Source: a virus. From it: DNA of 64,000 nt. The stretch's first letter is position 1. Each line of letters opens with the position of its first letter. Below are positions 789 through 52,777 of the stretch, one piece after another. The position numbers and the translations under genes were made by a program. The notes beneath the pieces are model-generated. The model saw nothing but the letters and a program-made list of their open reading frames with translations. It was not told the DNA's origin and made no database searches. The stretch lies in the IMG/VR virus record IMGVR_UViG_3300009370_000014, positions 1-64,000 of that record. The stretch is one strand, 5' to 3'.

Positions 789-2561
789 TTAGAAGCCTTG
801 TTGAGATTGCATTTGCTGTTGAGGTTGCATTTCTTGCTGAGGTTGCCCGTCAGGTCCTGGAGGAGCAGGGGCTTGCCCTGAATCTCGTATTCTCTCCATA
901 ATCTTAGAAGCTAAAGCGTATAGAGCAGGGTCTTGTTGAGCCAGATTACCCATTTCCTGTCTACGCTGCTCGTAAGGTAGCTGTAGCCACTGTTCTGCTA
1001 GTTGACTCGCTTGTTCTTCTAATCCTTGGAGAGATGCGGGACCTTGACCACCTTGTGCGTTAGGATCTCCTTCATTTCTTTTCATTTGTTTTTCTTGGAA
1101 TTCTTTTTCTAACTCAGCTTCCAATTCTTGCTGGGAATAACGCTTACGTAATTCATCTTTGATACTAGTACCTATTGTGGACAAGAATGTATCGTCTGCG
1201 ATCTTCTGAGCTCCAACAAGTTGCATCAACAAGTTCTTCTTCTCTAAGTCATCTACTAAAGTAACTTCAGCCCATCTACAAGATATGCGAGGTAAGTGGT
1301 AATACCTAGATATTTTATCTGCACACCATTGAGATAACTTATTCATACCATCTATCCATGTAGACATAGTATTTTCCAGTAAGCGAAGCGCGACGGGGGC
1401 AGACTGTATTGTTAAGTCCCCATAAAAGAGTTGTTGAGGAAAGCCCATACTATTCATTATCTCTTCGTTTGCGAGTTTTATCTCTGGCATCAAATTGAGA
1501 GTTTTTCCCTCACCTCCAATAGGCTGATAACCCACTGGGAAAGGAAAGAAATAAGCATCACCTGGATCCTGTCTATGCTTCTTAACCATTTCTAAAGCAG
1601 CATTTTTAAACCTATTCATATTAACAAACTGCCCAATATCATCTCCACGAGTATCAGGATACATAACTCTAATAGGTGTTAAGTAGTCCAAAGCTATCGC
1701 CTCATTCGCTCTTCTTAAGATAGCATTATAGTAATGCAGTTTAAACGTTCTCAAAGTAGTAGGAATTCCCCACTCAGCATTTAGTCCAGCAAGGGAGCTA
1801 GTCTTAAGATGAAGAATGCTGTCAGAGTTAAATGCTAAAGTCTTATTTTTTTTAACTATGTCGAAGAAAACTTGGGGCAACCCGGCCACAAAGTTAATAT
1901 CTCCAGACTTGATACGTAACTTATCTTTAGGTGGAATTGTATAATAATATTTACTTTCTCCAGTGATACTGTTATGAGCAATATCCATGTAGTGAGGATC
2001 CCAGCGTTTTAAATACAACCCCTTTATGGATCTCGAAGGTCTATCCACTATCTCCATTATTCCTTTATGTCCACATCTACAAGTTGCATGAAACTTGAAC
2101 TCTTCAAATCTTACTTTAATAGCCTGTTTGATAAGAGTTTGCATCTTACACTTATGACATTTTAAGAATCGTGTGAAAGGGAATTGCATAGATACAAAGC
2201 TGTTACCATAAGAGTATAGGTCAATTCCTATATTCCCTATTTGGTCCCTAAACCCAAGCTGATTGGTCATGATTTCTTCATAACGATTCTTGATGTCTGA
2301 GTCTTCAGTTCCAAACTGTAAAGCAGTAATGGGATACTTTACTGTACGTTCAATACAGTTAGCAACTACACCATTGTTGACGTAGATATGCTCTACCCAC
2401 TTAAACATATCTTTAATATTGCGAGGCATAAATTGAGCTGCAATGTCAAAGAAAGGTGAAGGGAAAGAGAAGTTTCCGCGTCCAGATGTACCGGGAAACT
2501 TGTGTATAAGCTCCCTGTCACTAATTCCTGAACCGAATCCTGTAAAGCCTGTGTTGGACAT
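789..2561 (-). CDS. portal protein
   Basis: 590 residues, the usual portal size. The middle part (about residues 260-400, including the SSLAGLNAEWGIPTTL segment and the following helices) has the look of the portal wing/stem of tailed phages, which forms the dodecameric DNA channel at the capsid vertex. Odd features: an inserted zinc-ribbon-like pair CHKC and CRCGH at about residues 135-165, and a C-terminal tail rich in Gln and Pro (QQEMQPQQQM). The start has an AGGATCCTC SD-like stretch. A portal fits with the terminase elsewhere on this molecule. Family assignment is by pattern, not alignment. Confidence 0.7.
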   Translation of the reverse strand: MSNTGFTGFGSGISDRELIHKFPGTSGRGNFSFPSPFFDIAAQFMPRNIKDMFKWVEHIYVNNGVVANCIERTVKYPITALQFGTEDSDIKNRYEEIMTNQLGFRDQIGNIGIDLYSYGNSFVSMQFPFTRFLKCHKCKMQTLIKQAIKVRFEEFKFHATCRCGHKGIMEIVDRPSRSIKGLYLKRWDPHYMDIAHNSITGESKYYYTIPPKDKLRIKSGDINFVAGLPQVFFDIVKKNKTLAFNSDSILHLKTSSLAGLNAEWGIPTTLRTFKLHYYNAILRRANEAIALDYLTPIRVMYPDTRGDDIGQFVNMNRFKNAALEMVKKHRQDPGDAYFFPFPVGYQPIGGEGKTLNLMPEIKLANEEIMNSMGFPQQLFYGDLTIQSAPVALRLLENTMSTWIDGMNKLSQWCADKISRYYHLPRISCRWAEVTLVDDLEKKNLLMQLVGAQKIADDTFLSTIGTSIKDELRKRYSQQELEAELEKEFQEKQMKRNEGDPNAQGGQGPASLQGLEEQASQLAEQWLQLPYEQRRQEMGNLAQQDPALYALASKIMERIRDSGQAPAPPGPDGQPQQEMQPQQQMQSQQGF

Positions 2562-2671
2562 GAGGATCCTCTATAACTGATTTATTTATTTTGATAGTCG
2601 ACTGGATTTATTATAGCTAAAGAAAAGAGTTCATGCCTATCTTTTATTTTTAATAGCTACGGAAAAGCTCG

Positions 2672-3472
2672 TTATCCTGTTTCGAGCTCTTCCTGGATGT
2701 CGTAGAAGCGGAGTTTAGCATTCTCCTCGTATGCTTCTTCCATATCCGAGAAGTATTTCTCCTCTTGGACATCACGGAAGTAAACATCTTTCCCTGCAAT
2801 CCATTCATTAATTCTCTCCCGGAAGTTGATGCTACCGGGGGCGTCCAGTACTACTTGGATGCCGTCTTCTTCATTCCAGAGAATCCAAACAAGGTAGTCG
2901 CTGCACGTAGAGAACCTAGCTTCTCCCGATGATCCTTTAGGATCATGAAGAATACATTCGCTCGTCATTGAGCCGAATAGCTTGGCTTGAGAGCTTAGCG
3001 AGAAATACTCAAGATTCCACATTCGGGTAGTATATCCTGCAGTCCTGCCTTGAGCTAGCAAGGCCCTAATCAAGTACTCAAGGTCCCTTCCTGTTTCTGA
3101 AGGAACAGTTTGCAGAAGATCTACCACAGGATGTTTCGCATCCTTGCCCATGAGATCTAGGATCTCATCTTCGTTGAACCCTAATCCGTAGAGTTCTCTC
3201 TTAGAAAAAGATTCTACGGTGTTACGTATGACATGTGTAATGTCACTTTGCTTTTCCCAATGAGAGTCATGTAAGTACTCTGGATCAGGCTCTCTCTTAT
3301 AAATTTCGTCTATGAATAGGTCAGCTTGTTTCCTAGACAGAAAGGCGGGACTACCATAAGGATTGTACTTAAGAAACTCCTTGTAAGTTACAGGCATTCC
3401 TGACCTGATCTTATAGAAGTAAAGTTGCTTAGGGTCGCCAGTGCGTTCAATGTTTCTAAAGATTGCGTCCAT
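2672..3472 (-). CDS. hypothetical protein, 266 aa
   Basis: I choose ATG 3472 because an AGGAG SD lies 7 nt upstream and the promoter at 3511-3555 is just behind it; the frame extends further upstream but would cross that promoter. Acidic soluble protein (ends DIQEELETG), no family recognised. More G+C-rich codons than the right half of the window. Confidence 0.7.
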   Translation of the reverse strand: MDAIFRNIERTGDPKQLYFYKIRSGMPVTYKEFLKYNPYGSPAFLSRKQADLFIDEIYKREPDPEYLHDSHWEKQSDITHVIRNTVESFSKRELYGLGFNEDEILDLMGKDAKHPVVDLLQTVPSETGRDLEYLIRALLAQGRTAGYTTRMWNLEYFSLSSQAKLFGSMTSECILHDPKGSSGEARFSTCSDYLVWILWNEEDGIQVVLDAPGSINFRERINEWIAGKDVYFRDVQEEKYFSDMEEAYEENAKLRFYDIQEELETG

Positions 3473-24102: not shown

Positions 24103-25866
24103 TCAAATTTGGTTTATCAAGAAAGCATCTACTGCAAGAACTTGATGTTTACTAACTATATCACTAAGAGTATTAATTTGCTTACCTGCTCTAGTCGGTA
24201 TAACTTGAGTACTTTCTGCTTTTAAAATCATAGTAATAATTTTTTCGCTGAAACCCCCTAAGAGGTTTACTCTTGGATGATTAGCTTTCGCCATAGACAC
24301 CTGGGAAGCTGTTAAGTCTACACTATGTAACCATACATCTGGATTAATCTTTTTTCGATAACTTATAAGATTATCTTCAAAAGTCTTGCGACTAAATCTC
24401 TCTCCATAAGTCTGTAAATCTGAAAGTATAATTATTCTGTCTACTTTAATATCGTTCGTAATTAAGTAACTAATGCATGATCCAGCGTCTGTCCCATGTC
24501 CATGGATCCTTTCATGCTTACTTAGCTCTTCGGCATTCTGTATAAGTGATCCACCTCTCACTAAAATTATAGGAGCAACTATACTTCCAAAAGGAAAAGC
24601 AAACGATTCTTTACTTTTAGCATGGAAAATAGCTCCTAGCAGATTACCTATTTCCCCACAGGACATCGTTGACTTTCTTGATACAGGCGCACACATGCTT
24701 CCGCTGTTGTCAATGAATACTGCGGTATTTCCTGGAATATCTGCTAAATTTTGAATACTGATCTTTAAACATTTTTCAATCTTATTTAAAATTTCATCAG
24801 TAGATAATTCAGAGTCTAGATCTCGAATAGCTTTATACGCCGCATAATATCTAAAGGGTAATTGTTTACTATTTAGAACTTTCTTTTCATCGGATATTTT
24901 TGCAATAATAGAATCTAAGCCAGATACTTGGTGTTCTATAGCATTACGTAGATTTCGTAAAGTAGCCATATAAGGCATAAAGTTAAATGCTGCACTCCAA
25001 ACTTGTTGTTTCTCTTTTTCAGCTTCTGGCCGATTTCCCATTGCAGATACAAAATTCTCCCAAGTTAACCCAGCTTCCTTAGCTATAGAGGCTAAATTTT
25101 CAATACTAGCAGTATTCGATATAGAATAAAACTCTTTACGTGCTTGTAAAATCCTAGGAGCCGTATCTACCACTTTATTATTTACAAGAAATTCAAACAT
25201 AGCTTTACTTATAGGGAATCCTTCTTTATGGCGAAATCTTTTAGGGAGTATGCCTCCTCTAATTGAAAGTAGTAAGTCTTTGAAGTTAGGATGTTGAGTT
25301 GGCTTATTGTACTTAATTAGAGAATATGAACTGTATGTCATTAATGCAAAAGCCATACCTTTCTGCAAGCACCCTGGTATATTAGCTCTAGGATATCCCT
25401 CTTCCCATGTACCAAACAAACAGTTGTATATTTCCAATAGTTGCAACAAATCATCAGGTCTACTACATACAGCAGGAACATATCTACTTACAGGGTTCAT
25501 AGTCTTGTCATCTCCTCTAATATATTTACTAGCTACAGCGACTAGTAGTTGAGGAAATAGACGCATATGCATCTCTTGTCTTGCCCATTTAGCGATACAT
25601 AGAAGATTTTCTGGATTATCACCTTTAGCTATCTTAATAGCTGTATTTAAAATATCAGTTCCTCGTTCATCAAGAACCTTATCGTTAAATTCATTATTCG
25701 ACGCAATAGCAGCATCTGGATAGAATCCTGGCTCACCCATGTACGCCACCGAAGCAATTAGCTTCTCGGCTGGATTAGATATCGAGTAGACTATACCACT
25801 CTCCTTATTTAGTACAATACTGGTGTCCATTGTAGCCTTACTTTTATTAAATCCAACTTTTGCCAT
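24103..25866 (-). CDS. Ro60-like TROVE-vWA RNA-binding protein
   Basis: 587 residues, the usual Ro60/Rsr size. The N-terminal two-thirds is the helical TROVE ring (ICIAKWARQEMHMRLFPQLL, LPFRYYAAYKAI), which in known Ro60 proteins binds misfolded RNA ends in its cavity and Y RNA on its surface. The C-terminal third is a von Willebrand A domain with a MIDAS motif DNSGSM (about residue 385), a Thr (HGTDAG) and Asp (ILSDLQ). The start has no strong SD; it follows the TAA of the 56-aa gene (TAAATG), so coupling is likely. Three tRNA-like RNAs lie just downstream. Known bacterial Ro60 helps rRNA and RNA quality control under stress. Confidence 0.88.
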   Translation of the reverse strand: MAKVGFNKSKATMDTSIVLNKESGIVYSISNPAEKLIASVAYMGEPGFYPDAAIASNNEFNDKVLDERGTDILNTAIKIAKGDNPENLLCIAKWARQEMHMRLFPQLLVAVASKYIRGDDKTMNPVSRYVPAVCSRPDDLLQLLEIYNCLFGTWEEGYPRANIPGCLQKGMAFALMTYSSYSLIKYNKPTQHPNFKDLLLSIRGGILPKRFRHKEGFPISKAMFEFLVNNKVVDTAPRILQARKEFYSISNTASIENLASIAKEAGLTWENFVSAMGNRPEAEKEKQQVWSAAFNFMPYMATLRNLRNAIEHQVSGLDSIIAKISDEKKVLNSKQLPFRYYAAYKAIRDLDSELSTDEILNKIEKCLKISIQNLADIPGNTAVFIDNSGSMCAPVSRKSTMSCGEIGNLLGAIFHAKSKESFAFPFGSIVAPIILVRGGSLIQNAEELSKHERIHGHGTDAGSCISYLITNDIKVDRIIILSDLQTYGERFSRKTFEDNLISYRKKINPDVWLHSVDLTASQVSMAKANHPRVNLLGGFSEKIITMILKAESTQVIPTRAGKQINTLSDIVSKHQVLAVDAFLINQI

Positions 25867-39178: not shown

Positions 39179-39266
39179 CTTTCTCTCCTTAAAATTTAGT
39201 TTTCTAATTAATAAAAATAAGTATAGTGGGATTCGAACCCACACTCCCATACGAGAAGCAGATTTT

Positions 39267-39945
39267 CTTACTAACTACAGTTTTCACTGCCAAGCGGTTA
39301 ACTTGTTTGTAGTCTGGACTTTCTCTTTACCTTATAATAAGATTCACTTAGGTATTTTACGTAAAGTCTCTACACTCAAAGGAAATTAACATGAAGTTTA
39401 GAAAATATTCGGAAAACCAATTGAGAAACGCTGTAAAAGAAAGCGAGTCTATTAGATCCGTACTGTCTAAACTTAATCTCAAACAAGCCGGAGGAAACTA
39501 CAGAACTTTTAATAAAGCTGTAGCTTACTTAGACTTAGACATCTCACATTTCAAAGGTCAGGGATGGAATAAAGGACAAAACTTTGGACCCAAAAGACCT
39601 TTAAGTGACTACCTAGACAAGGGAATCCCTATCCAATCCAGTAAATTACGTAAGAGACTTATTCAAGAAGATATTTTCTGTCATAAGTGTTATAGATGTA
39701 ACTTAACTGAATGGCAAGAACATCCTATTCCTTTGGAGCTAGATCATATCAATGGAGAACATTTAGATAATAGATTAGAAAATCTAAGACTATTATGTCC
39801 AAATTGTCATGCCCAAACTCCTACTTATCGAGGTAAGAATATTAAATTTCCTCTTAGCTCGGGATTGCCATCAGCTTTACCTGGTAAGGTTTCCCCGAAT
39901 TAGTAAAATCCATTTTCTTTATTTCTAAAGAAAAGCTCAATTTTC
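39267..39945 (-). other. group I self-splicing intron, 679 nt
   Basis: The 5' splice junction is U|G, and the intron ends in G (position 39267), as required. Core elements in order: P-like AAAATTGAGC at the 5' end, Q-like GGCAATCCCGAGC (39860-39872), R-like TGTAGAGACTTTACG (about 39365-39383) and S-like AAGAGAAAGTCC (about 39324-39336). Most of the interior is taken by an antisense HNH gene, whose 3' end overlaps the Q segment. Splicing yields tRNA-Leu(UAA). Confidence 0.88.
39391..39903 (+). CDS. HNH homing endonuclease inside the tRNA-Leu intron (antisense)
   Basis: 170 residues. HNH motif about residues 110-150: ELDHINGEHLDNRLENLRLL then CPNCHAQ, with paired Cys (CHKC, CRC, CPNC) binding zinc. 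AAAGGA SD before ATG. It lies on the strand opposite to the intron, so transcripts of intron and endonuclease differ. Its last 20 codons (about 39845-39900) overlap the conserved intron core, so that protein tail is constrained by RNA structure. The enzyme would cut intronless tRNA-Leu alleles and spread the intron. Confidence 0.88.
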   Translation: MKFRKYSENQLRNAVKESESIRSVLSKLNLKQAGGNYRTFNKAVAYLDLDISHFKGQGWNKGQNFGPKRPLSDYLDKGIPIQSSKLRKRLIQEDIFCHKCYRCNLTEWQEHPIPLELDHINGEHLDNRLENLRLLCPNCHAQTPTYRGKNIKFPLSSGLPSALPGKVSPN

Positions 39946-39989
39946 AAGTCTGCTGCGTCTACCAATTCCGCCATATACTCTTAAGATAT

Positions 39990-51523: not shown

Positions 51524-51647
51524 TTGAGTCGTCCTTAGACATATAAGCCATAATATCAAAGCCTAGGGAGATAGACTCTAGACAAAGAGAATCTTTATCA
51601 GTCTTAATATGTTTCTCCAGTGCTTTTAGTAATCTTTTAATAATCAT
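51507..51647 (-). CDS. small protein downstream of the RT, 46 aa
   Basis: ATG overlaps the RT stop (ATGA), so it is probably translated by coupling with the RT. Acidic helical protein. Could be a retron-linked accessory, but nothing is recognised. Confidence 0.55.
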   Translation of the reverse strand: MIIKRLLKALEKHIKTDKDSLCLESISLGFDIMAYMSKDDSNDMSK

Positions 51648-52777
51648 AGTATCGGAATCTCCGTTATTAATTCATTATAACCTTTAGTTTTTAGTATAAA
51701 ATCGAATTTATCTTTTAGTTTTTTTCCTTTTATTTCATTAACTTGGATAAAATAATTAATCTGTCCTCGAATCCACTCTAAAAATTGAATTTCTGTTCGA
51801 TTTGTTTTAGCAGCCTCCTTAGCGATGCTATTTTGAGTCATGTTATGCAAGATACATTTTAATAATTCACGCTTCCGACGTAAGAGATCAGGCTTATCGT
51901 TTACCACCATACCTAAGACGTATTGTCTAGCTGGAGTCCTGTATACTTTTGTCTTACGGGTATTCAAAGTAAATCCTTTAGAGCTAAGAACATCAGACAT
52001 CTTAGTTATAACAGTATCTATCTCACTTTTTACATATACGTTTCCTTCTTTATCAGTATATTCTTTTTTTTCAAAATCTTTATCTGTACTTAAAGTTATG
52101 TCATCAGCATATCTAGTATAGGCAAACCCTGCATCTCTAGCAAGTTTACGTAAATCCTCATCAAAATAGAAGTGACCTACTAAATTAGATATAGTAGGAG
52201 AAGTAGGTGCTCCCTCAGGTACAAAAAATTTAAATGTGCAAAGCTCTGAGAGATACCTGGATACATTATCAGGATACTTAAAATGTTTCTGAAATAACTC
52301 GTATAAGTGTTTCTGCTTAATTGAATTGAAGTAATGTCTGAGATCTAGAGAAACAACAATCTTTTTGTTAGCATGTACTTTAGCCGTATCTCTAGTCTTT
52401 TTTCCTTTTCTAAATCCTGTAATATAATCGGGTAGGAAAGTATCAGCAGGATCTAGTATCTTTCGTTTTATCTGTTTCTGAACATACATCATGCAATCTT
52501 TAGGCTCCTGTAATTTTCGAAACTTTCCTTTATTAGACTTACCTTTTTTAGGAATACTCCAAAACTTATATTGCTGATTTTTATCTTTACGTAACCAATT
52601 AACAGTTCTTTTTTTTACTCCTAATGTATCTGCAAGCATACCTATATCAAGAATCACTGGAAATCCCGAAGTTTCTTGATACTTTAAAATGGAACTTAGA
52701 TCACAAATTTCAAATAAAGAGGGATTAACTCCTTGAAAACCTACTTGCTCTAAACGATAAGGTGATATTTCTATCAT
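51644..52777 (-). CDS. retron-type reverse transcriptase
   Basis: 377 residues. Motifs in order: IPKKGK and RKLQEP (RT1 region), ITGFRKGKKTRDTA then SLDLRHYFNSI (RT2-3), PEGAPTSPTISNL (RT4), YTRYADDITLS (catalytic YADD, RT5) and YVLGMVVNDKPDLLRRK (RT7), the pattern of retron and retron-like RTs. DGR RTs use a different segment before YADD, so DGR is unlikely. No msr-msd RNA is recognised: the upstream side is the terminase gene. Its ATG (52775-52777) overlaps that of the divergent terminase (52776-52778). SD GGAGAG lies inside the terminase gene. Confidence 0.85.
   Translation of the reverse strand: MIEISPYRLEQVGFQGVNPSLFEICDLSSILKYQETSGFPVILDIGMLADTLGVKKRTVNWLRKDKNQQYKFWSIPKKGKSNKGKFRKLQEPKDCMMYVQKQIKRKILDPADTFLPDYITGFRKGKKTRDTAKVHANKKIVVSLDLRHYFNSIKQKHLYELFQKHFKYPDNVSRYLSELCTFKFFVPEGAPTSPTISNLVGHFYFDEDLRKLARDAGFAYTRYADDITLSTDKDFEKKEYTDKEGNVYVKSEIDTVITKMSDVLSSKGFTLNTRKTKVYRTPARQYVLGMVVNDKPDLLRRKRELLKCILHNMTQNSIAKEAAKTNRTEIQFLEWIRGQINYFIQVNEIKGKKLKDKFDFILKTKGYNELITEIPIL

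Follow-up and report, generated by a model that had tools for sequence, protein, structure and literature searches.

The window, by which is meant the whole stretch of viral DNA analysed (64,000 nucleotides of the IMG/VR record IMGVR_UViG_3300009370_000014), most probably harbours a phage tRNA-Leu(UAA) gene interrupted by a group I intron of the mobile type, whose P6 loop contains an antisense HNH endonuclease gene derived from a free-standing family targeting tRNA-Leu genes. The probability of this reading is put at roughly 0.8. The element consists of the following features:

39946-39980, minus strand: 5' exon of tRNA-Leu(UAA), 35 nt, ending at U34 with the last letters ...GCAGACUU.
39267-39945, minus strand: group I intron, IC3-like (cyanobacterial tRNA-Leu type), 679 nt, recognized by two covariance-model matches flanking the ORF and by covarying helices.
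39218-39266, minus strand: 3' exon of tRNA-Leu(UAA), 49 nt, assigned by ARAGORN on the joined exons.
39391-39903, plus strand: intact ORF for a homing-type HNH endonuclease, 170 aa, antisense to both tRNA and intron.
39380-39387, plus strand: Shine-Dalgarno-like AGGAAATT preceding the ATG of the HNH ORF by 3 nt (7 nt from AGGA to ATG).

The exons 39980-39946 and 39266-39218, spliced by script before scoring with ARAGORN, form an 84-nt class II tRNA-Leu(taa) in which all stems are paired. The preliminary description had proposed a full class II tRNA-Leu with anticodon TAA from two exons and had named the scoring of the spliced exons as a check; the full tRNA was indeed called, and the proposed coordinates were exact to the base on the minus strand. 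As read from the window exons, the spliced junction is predicted to be GCAGACUU joined to AAAAUCUGC. UUA is the commonest Leu codon of the window phage (395 of 1086 Leu codons), and no second tRNA-Leu was found within the 64-kb window. In the unspliced region 39980-39218 ARAGORN reported no tRNA, and the intron mode of the program also missed the gene.

The ends of the intron are those of group I. The U preceding the 5' splice site (...GACUU followed by GAAAAUUGAG) is involved in a U-G pair with the guide sequence and the last intron residue is a G (...UAAG followed by AAAA), which bears out the group I junction at U34 that had been suggested beforehand. The conserved P3-P8 core is present, including the P3/P7 pseudoknot, and every helix pairs in the window:

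39913-39934, minus strand: P2 hairpin, 9 bp with a GAAA loop, strands TTTTCTTTA and TAAAGAAAA; covaries in the alignment.
39903-39909, minus strand: P3 5' strand ATTTTAC, pairing with 39360-39354 (GTAAAAT); covaries across 28 introns.
39845-39852, minus strand: P6 5' strand AGGAAATT, pairing with 39387-39380; its loop is filled by the HNH ORF.
39363-39368, minus strand: P7 5' strand GACTTT (R segment), pairing with 39322-39317 (AAAGTC, S segment).

The strands of P4 (TCGGG with CCCGA), P8 (ACCT with AGGT) and P9 (CAGT with ACTG) pair as well, and pair 5 of P7 is AU, UA or CG among sister introns. These sister introns were fetched from phage and bacterial contigs by a short core motif, and their exons were solved by script. 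Alignment with MAFFT comprised 27 other tRNA-Leu introns and the window intron without its ORF (28 in total). The structure that was counted consisted of P2, P3, P4, P5, P6, P7, P8 and P9 plus the P3/P7 pseudoknot; a P9.0-type pairing was excluded because MAFFT misplaces its columns. Pairing was seen in 91.2% of the alignment cells compared to 69.1% in shuffles, and covariation was 0.572 compared to 0.163 in shuffles and at most 0.146 for the slid structure. A covariance model (R1), built from the 27 other introns only and with the window excluded, matched the 5' half of the intron independently (39947-39814, 57.3 bits, E 2e-20) and the 3' half (39489-39267, 64.2 bits, E 5e-23) not fully independently, since the training introns had been fetched via a 25-nt motif shared by the window. 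The next best match in the 64 kb scored 7.5 bits. The P, Q, R and S-like segments noticed earlier are real in view of these paired helices and model matches.

The empty ARAGORN result on the unspliced sequence, and the fact that Rfam does not call the intron (see below), might be taken to mean that the exons match by coincidence and that ordinary intergenic DNA holding an HNH gene separates them. This explanation is scarcely credible, as R1 matches on either side of the ORF and the U34 junction (CTT followed by AAAA) is identical in dozens of loci. Coincidental exons were rejected as refuted by the spliced tRNA, the helix covariation and the R1 matches.

Introns of Planktothrix, Microcoleus and a Cyanobacterium are included in the same alignment and in R1, which indicates that the window intron is of the classical cyanobacterial kind. 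Its subgroup, judged by the alignment and R1, is IC3-like: the insertion follows U34 of tRNA-Leu(UAA) and the core is common to the cyanobacterial members. The 679-nt gap is thus confirmed as a group I intron of the cyanobacterial type (IC3-like), inserted at U34. The insertion site had been likened before to that of cyanobacterial and plastid tRNA-Leu introns, and the alignment adds the same core to the same U34 site. Of the original interpretation, the interruption at U34 by this kind of group I intron holds, while the antisense HNH gene in P6 had been missed and the supposed rarity is not supported (see below).

With the Rfam model RF00028 the window intron scored 15.8 bits, below the gathering threshold of 50. 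Lack of an RF00028 match in 39267-39945 had been named in advance as a reason to discard the intron, and on this point the outcome went against the preliminary description; the test itself was judged too insensitive. Only one of four ORF-free sister introns used as positive controls passed (L058; not L001, L011 and L017). Since ORF-free sisters mostly fail RF00028 too, the low score reflects model sensitivity, and RF00028 was dropped as the deciding test. A sub-threshold score could also be expected of a decaying relic that no longer splices and leaves the split tRNA gene dead, and splicing of the window intron rests on sequence. Such a relic is very improbable nevertheless: all core helices, P3 and P7 included, pair in the window's own letters, the exons give a clean tRNA, the HNH gene is intact, and the most used Leu codon would be left with no other tRNA-Leu found in the window.

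The HNH ORF of the window matches Pfam HNH_3 (E 1e-5) and phrog_10822 (E 2e-48). The catalytic residues H119, N131 and H140 and two CxxC pairs are intact and are invariant across 43 aligned proteins. An AlphaFold model (mean pLDDT 87) is confident except for the last ~18 residues, whose codons lie on the reverse strand of the ribozyme core; the stop codon (39901-39903, plus strand) coincides in part with the end of the P3 5' strand. The Shine-Dalgarno-like sequence is the reverse strand of the P6 3' side, an overlap also found in L037 and L059. A profile sequence search against solved structures yielded no match for the HNH protein, and a fold search in the PDB matched HNH nucleases but weakly (best E 0.14). 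The product is probably an HNH-fold protein with its catalytic residues in place, of the homing type by family and with predicted activity. The gene lies in the P6 loop with R1 matches on both sides, leaving the ribozyme core unbroken, and the insertion point in P6 is common to the window, L037, L059, L206 and L277. A consensus scan for an antisense HNH promoter gave no more than chance (4 found against 4.5 expected); the TATAAT that L8 of the window contains was considered as HNH promoter and judged unconvincing.

Two separate retrievals, by intron core and by protein, agree that at the sequence level the HNH family is associated with tRNA-Leu. Among the matches listed for 118 loci fetched by intron core alone, 32 loci had an HNH relative less than 1 kb from the core, and only 2 HNH matches lay elsewhere in the 1.06 Mb of these loci; by our own estimate a uniform spread would place about one fifth of the HNH matches within 1 kb of the core. 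Protein-only retrieval gave 80 loci, and in the best 45 of these 80 the relatives were located in or beside tRNA-Leu genes in 41 cases: 19 of the 45 at 13-112 nt from an intact tRNA-Leu(UAA), and 22 in or beside an intron-containing tRNA-Leu. The other 4 had neither nearby. Weaker relatives often adjoin other tRNA-Leu isoacceptors, and so do relatives in the cultured phages mistaenkt, pSJ21, PPSC2 and GodonK (tRNA-Leu(UAG) included). In mistaenkt, a phage of E. coli K-12, the neighbour of the HNH relative is tRNA-Leu(UAG). Inside introns the HNH gene occupies the P1 loop (L045, L104, L278, L289, L293, L296, L304 and L313), P6 in sense orientation (L015, L024, L074, L177, L215, L324 and L337) or P6 in antisense orientation, the last in five cases (the window, L037, L059, L206 and L277). 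As a separate observation, L016 (Dulem virus 42, 2420-3465) has an HNH relative whose upstream neighbour, at a distance of 65 nt, is a predicted permuted tmRNA and not a tRNA-Leu.

Many relatives are free-standing beside an intronless tRNA-Leu, including those in cultured phages beside tRNA-Leu(UAG), which implies that the enzyme does not need the intron. This leaves room for the view that the HNH gene is a mere hitchhiker, a free-standing tRNA-cluster endonuclease that landed in a tolerated loop and spreads the whole tRNA region, not targeting the intron site. SegB of T4 is said to spread the tRNA region as a whole. We regard this view as unlikely, though worth keeping in mind: the HNH gene is strongly associated, in both directions, with tRNA-Leu as well as the intron, the five antisense cases share one position in P6, and moves into the P1 and P6 loops were repeated and independent.

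The preferred reading, a mobile-type intron with an HNH gene from a tRNA-Leu-targeting family, is consistent with alleles with and without the intron in relatives. L063 and L274 have the same arrangement of tRNA-Leu and HNH gene and differ by exactly the intron (198 nt, between ACTT and AAAAT); the same holds for L085 and L273 (200 nt, same site). The comparison was limited to these pairs, which have a clean single gap at the site. A search by neighbour protein and by DNA found no phage closely related to that of the window with an empty site. All five P6-antisense rows cluster, in a tree of 68 HNH proteins, within a single group of 12 rows (support 83/87; the bootstrap had not stabilized), which also holds the four I+DNanti rows and one of the two I-DNanti rows (L262); the other I-DNanti row, L319, is found elsewhere in the tree, next to L024 and L328. 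The exact neighbours of the window inside the 12-row group are not settled by the tree. Orientation changed 3 times on the tree against a shuffled mean of 10.4, inside or outside position 12 times against 16.9, and intron presence 16 times against 18.6. The conserved orientation combined with the labile position suggests that the HNH gene shifts between flank and intron without flipping.

It had been supposed that a phage tRNA-Leu of this kind is rare. At least 51 solved phage loci, a lower bound from a core-motif scan of viral contigs with some loci being near-duplicates, contain a tRNA-Leu(UAA) split at the same U34 site. Among the matches listed, the phage tRNA-Leu(UAA) introns are mostly 196-215 nt and without ORF, and tRNA-Arg, -Thr and -Met cases are also present. 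The cultured Agrobacterium phage Atu_ph07 (490-kb) harbours a tRNA-Leu(UAA) that is missing from its annotation and is split at U34 by a group I intron of 278 nt (L254, 1493-1771). The best spliced reading of L037, one of the antisense-HNH introns, is a tRNA-Leu with anticodon UAG (CTT followed by AGGA), which places the insertion at the same site of a different isoacceptor. A restriction of the element to cyanophages was considered and ruled out, as introns and enzymes occur in huge phages, the Agrobacterium phage and bacterial MAGs. Further core-like sequences were observed: a second intron-model match on the same contig stretch of L104 (9830-10027, minus strand, 90 bits); tRNA-Leu intron core-like pieces between two capsid-gene fragments in Pelagibacter phage HTVC120P (L257, 1501-1653) and in uncultured phage C739 (L258, 1501-1578); and, close to the integrase gene of Gordonia phage Daredevil (L255, ~1340-1650), an intron core within a tRNA-like sequence that lacks annotation and seems to be split.

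The arrangement is not rare but little described. All phage introns known by 2014 were located in protein-coding genes and none in phage tRNA genes, according to a review (PMC3984707), and introns are not mentioned in a 2019 survey of viral tRNA genes (PMC6409571). The open-access literature, subscription journals lying outside the search, yielded no report of group I introns in phage tRNA genes; likewise, no report from this literature was found to describe an antisense homing gene for any phage or tRNA intron.

Three other features of the window were recorded. A phage tmRNA (31107-31524, minus strand; RF00023, 116 bits) was missed by ARAGORN, and one of its frames ends in a plausible tag, ...DALIAA*. 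A Ro60-like protein (TROVE + vWA) is encoded at 24103-25866 (minus strand), ~0.8 kb from a tRNA-Met/tRNA-Cys pair. A reverse transcriptase gene (51644-52777, minus strand; RVT_1, phrog_2825) directly adjoins the gene for the large terminase, which lies on the opposite strand.

The window intron resembles the cyanobacterial and plastid tRNA-Leu(UAA) U34 introns (IC3) in gene, site and P2-P9 core, and the cyanobacterial members L168, L171 and L178 align in the same model. Unlike these, it resides in a phage and has an antisense HNH gene in P6, whereas the classical IC3 members compared here are ORF-free and about 200-330 nt. An intron with an anticodon-region endonuclease is known from tRNA-fMet of Synechocystis (Bonocora and Shub 2001, as cited in PMC3984707). 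This likeness is drawn from the title of that paper; the window tRNA is a different one and its enzyme is an antisense HNH protein for which cleavage is predicted. In collaborative homing, a free-standing endonuclease beside an intron-containing gene is thought to cut the intron site (Bonocora and Shub 2009; Zeng et al. 2009, both via PMC10448857), and that source describes it as a proposed path to mobile introns. Among relatives of the window element, similarly, a gene split by an intron can have a free-standing endonuclease gene as its neighbour. In contrast to those cases, the target here is a tRNA gene, and one family comprises a natural series of genes located outside the intron, within the P1 loop, and in P6 in either orientation. 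At site L2066 of myxomycete nuclear rDNA, introns carry sense or antisense homing genes and the antisense one is expressed (PMC9548176); the antisense orientation as such therefore has a precedent. That system concerns eukaryotic nuclear rDNA, a His-Cys box enzyme and P9.2, and the present one a phage tRNA, an HNH enzyme and P6. SegB (T4) and HegA/F-TflIV (T5) are likewise encoded beside phage tRNA genes, and T5 hegA has a match at the DNA level in the HNH region. Unlike the window HNH gene, segB and hegA do not lie in an intron, and T5 hegA adjoins tRNA-Ile(CAU), not tRNA-Leu.

According to the proposed mechanism, the minus-strand transcript folds as a ribozyme that would excise itself at U34, leaving the two exons ligated as a functional tRNA for UUA. 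The insertion-tolerant P6 loop houses the HNH gene on the opposite strand, which implies that production of the enzyme must depend on a plus-strand transcript of its own. Its most likely action is to nick or cut the tRNA-Leu gene in the DNA of co-infecting phages without the element, and repair of the cut would copy intron and HNH gene together into the element-free phage. The family apparently began free-standing beside tRNA-Leu, a starting point as in collaborative homing, and may next have cooperated with introns in the same gene and moved repeatedly into intron loops; in the window, the orientation of antisense free-standing relatives would have been kept on entry. More specifically, the chances seem evenly balanced that one HNH family is a dedicated tRNA-Leu parasite with a DNA target coinciding with the U34 intron site, captured several times independently by the local group I intron (P1 loop, P6 sense and P6 antisense) and retaining in every case its former orientation beside the tRNA.

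Earlier descriptions of phage group I introns concern protein genes; in phage tRNA genes they are common here. tRNA finders and Rfam overlook many such introns, which means that phage tRNA sets are undercounted. The window element poses the question of how a gene lying antisense within a tRNA transcript can be expressed and leave the tRNA unharmed. The graded set of HNH genes beside an intact tRNA, beside a split one and inside the intron in both orientations makes the entry of homing genes into introns directly testable. If a tRNA-Leu parasite has indeed been captured repeatedly, this would be the first antisense case of such a kind in phages, and the family would become a natural time series of free-standing endonucleases becoming intron-borne.
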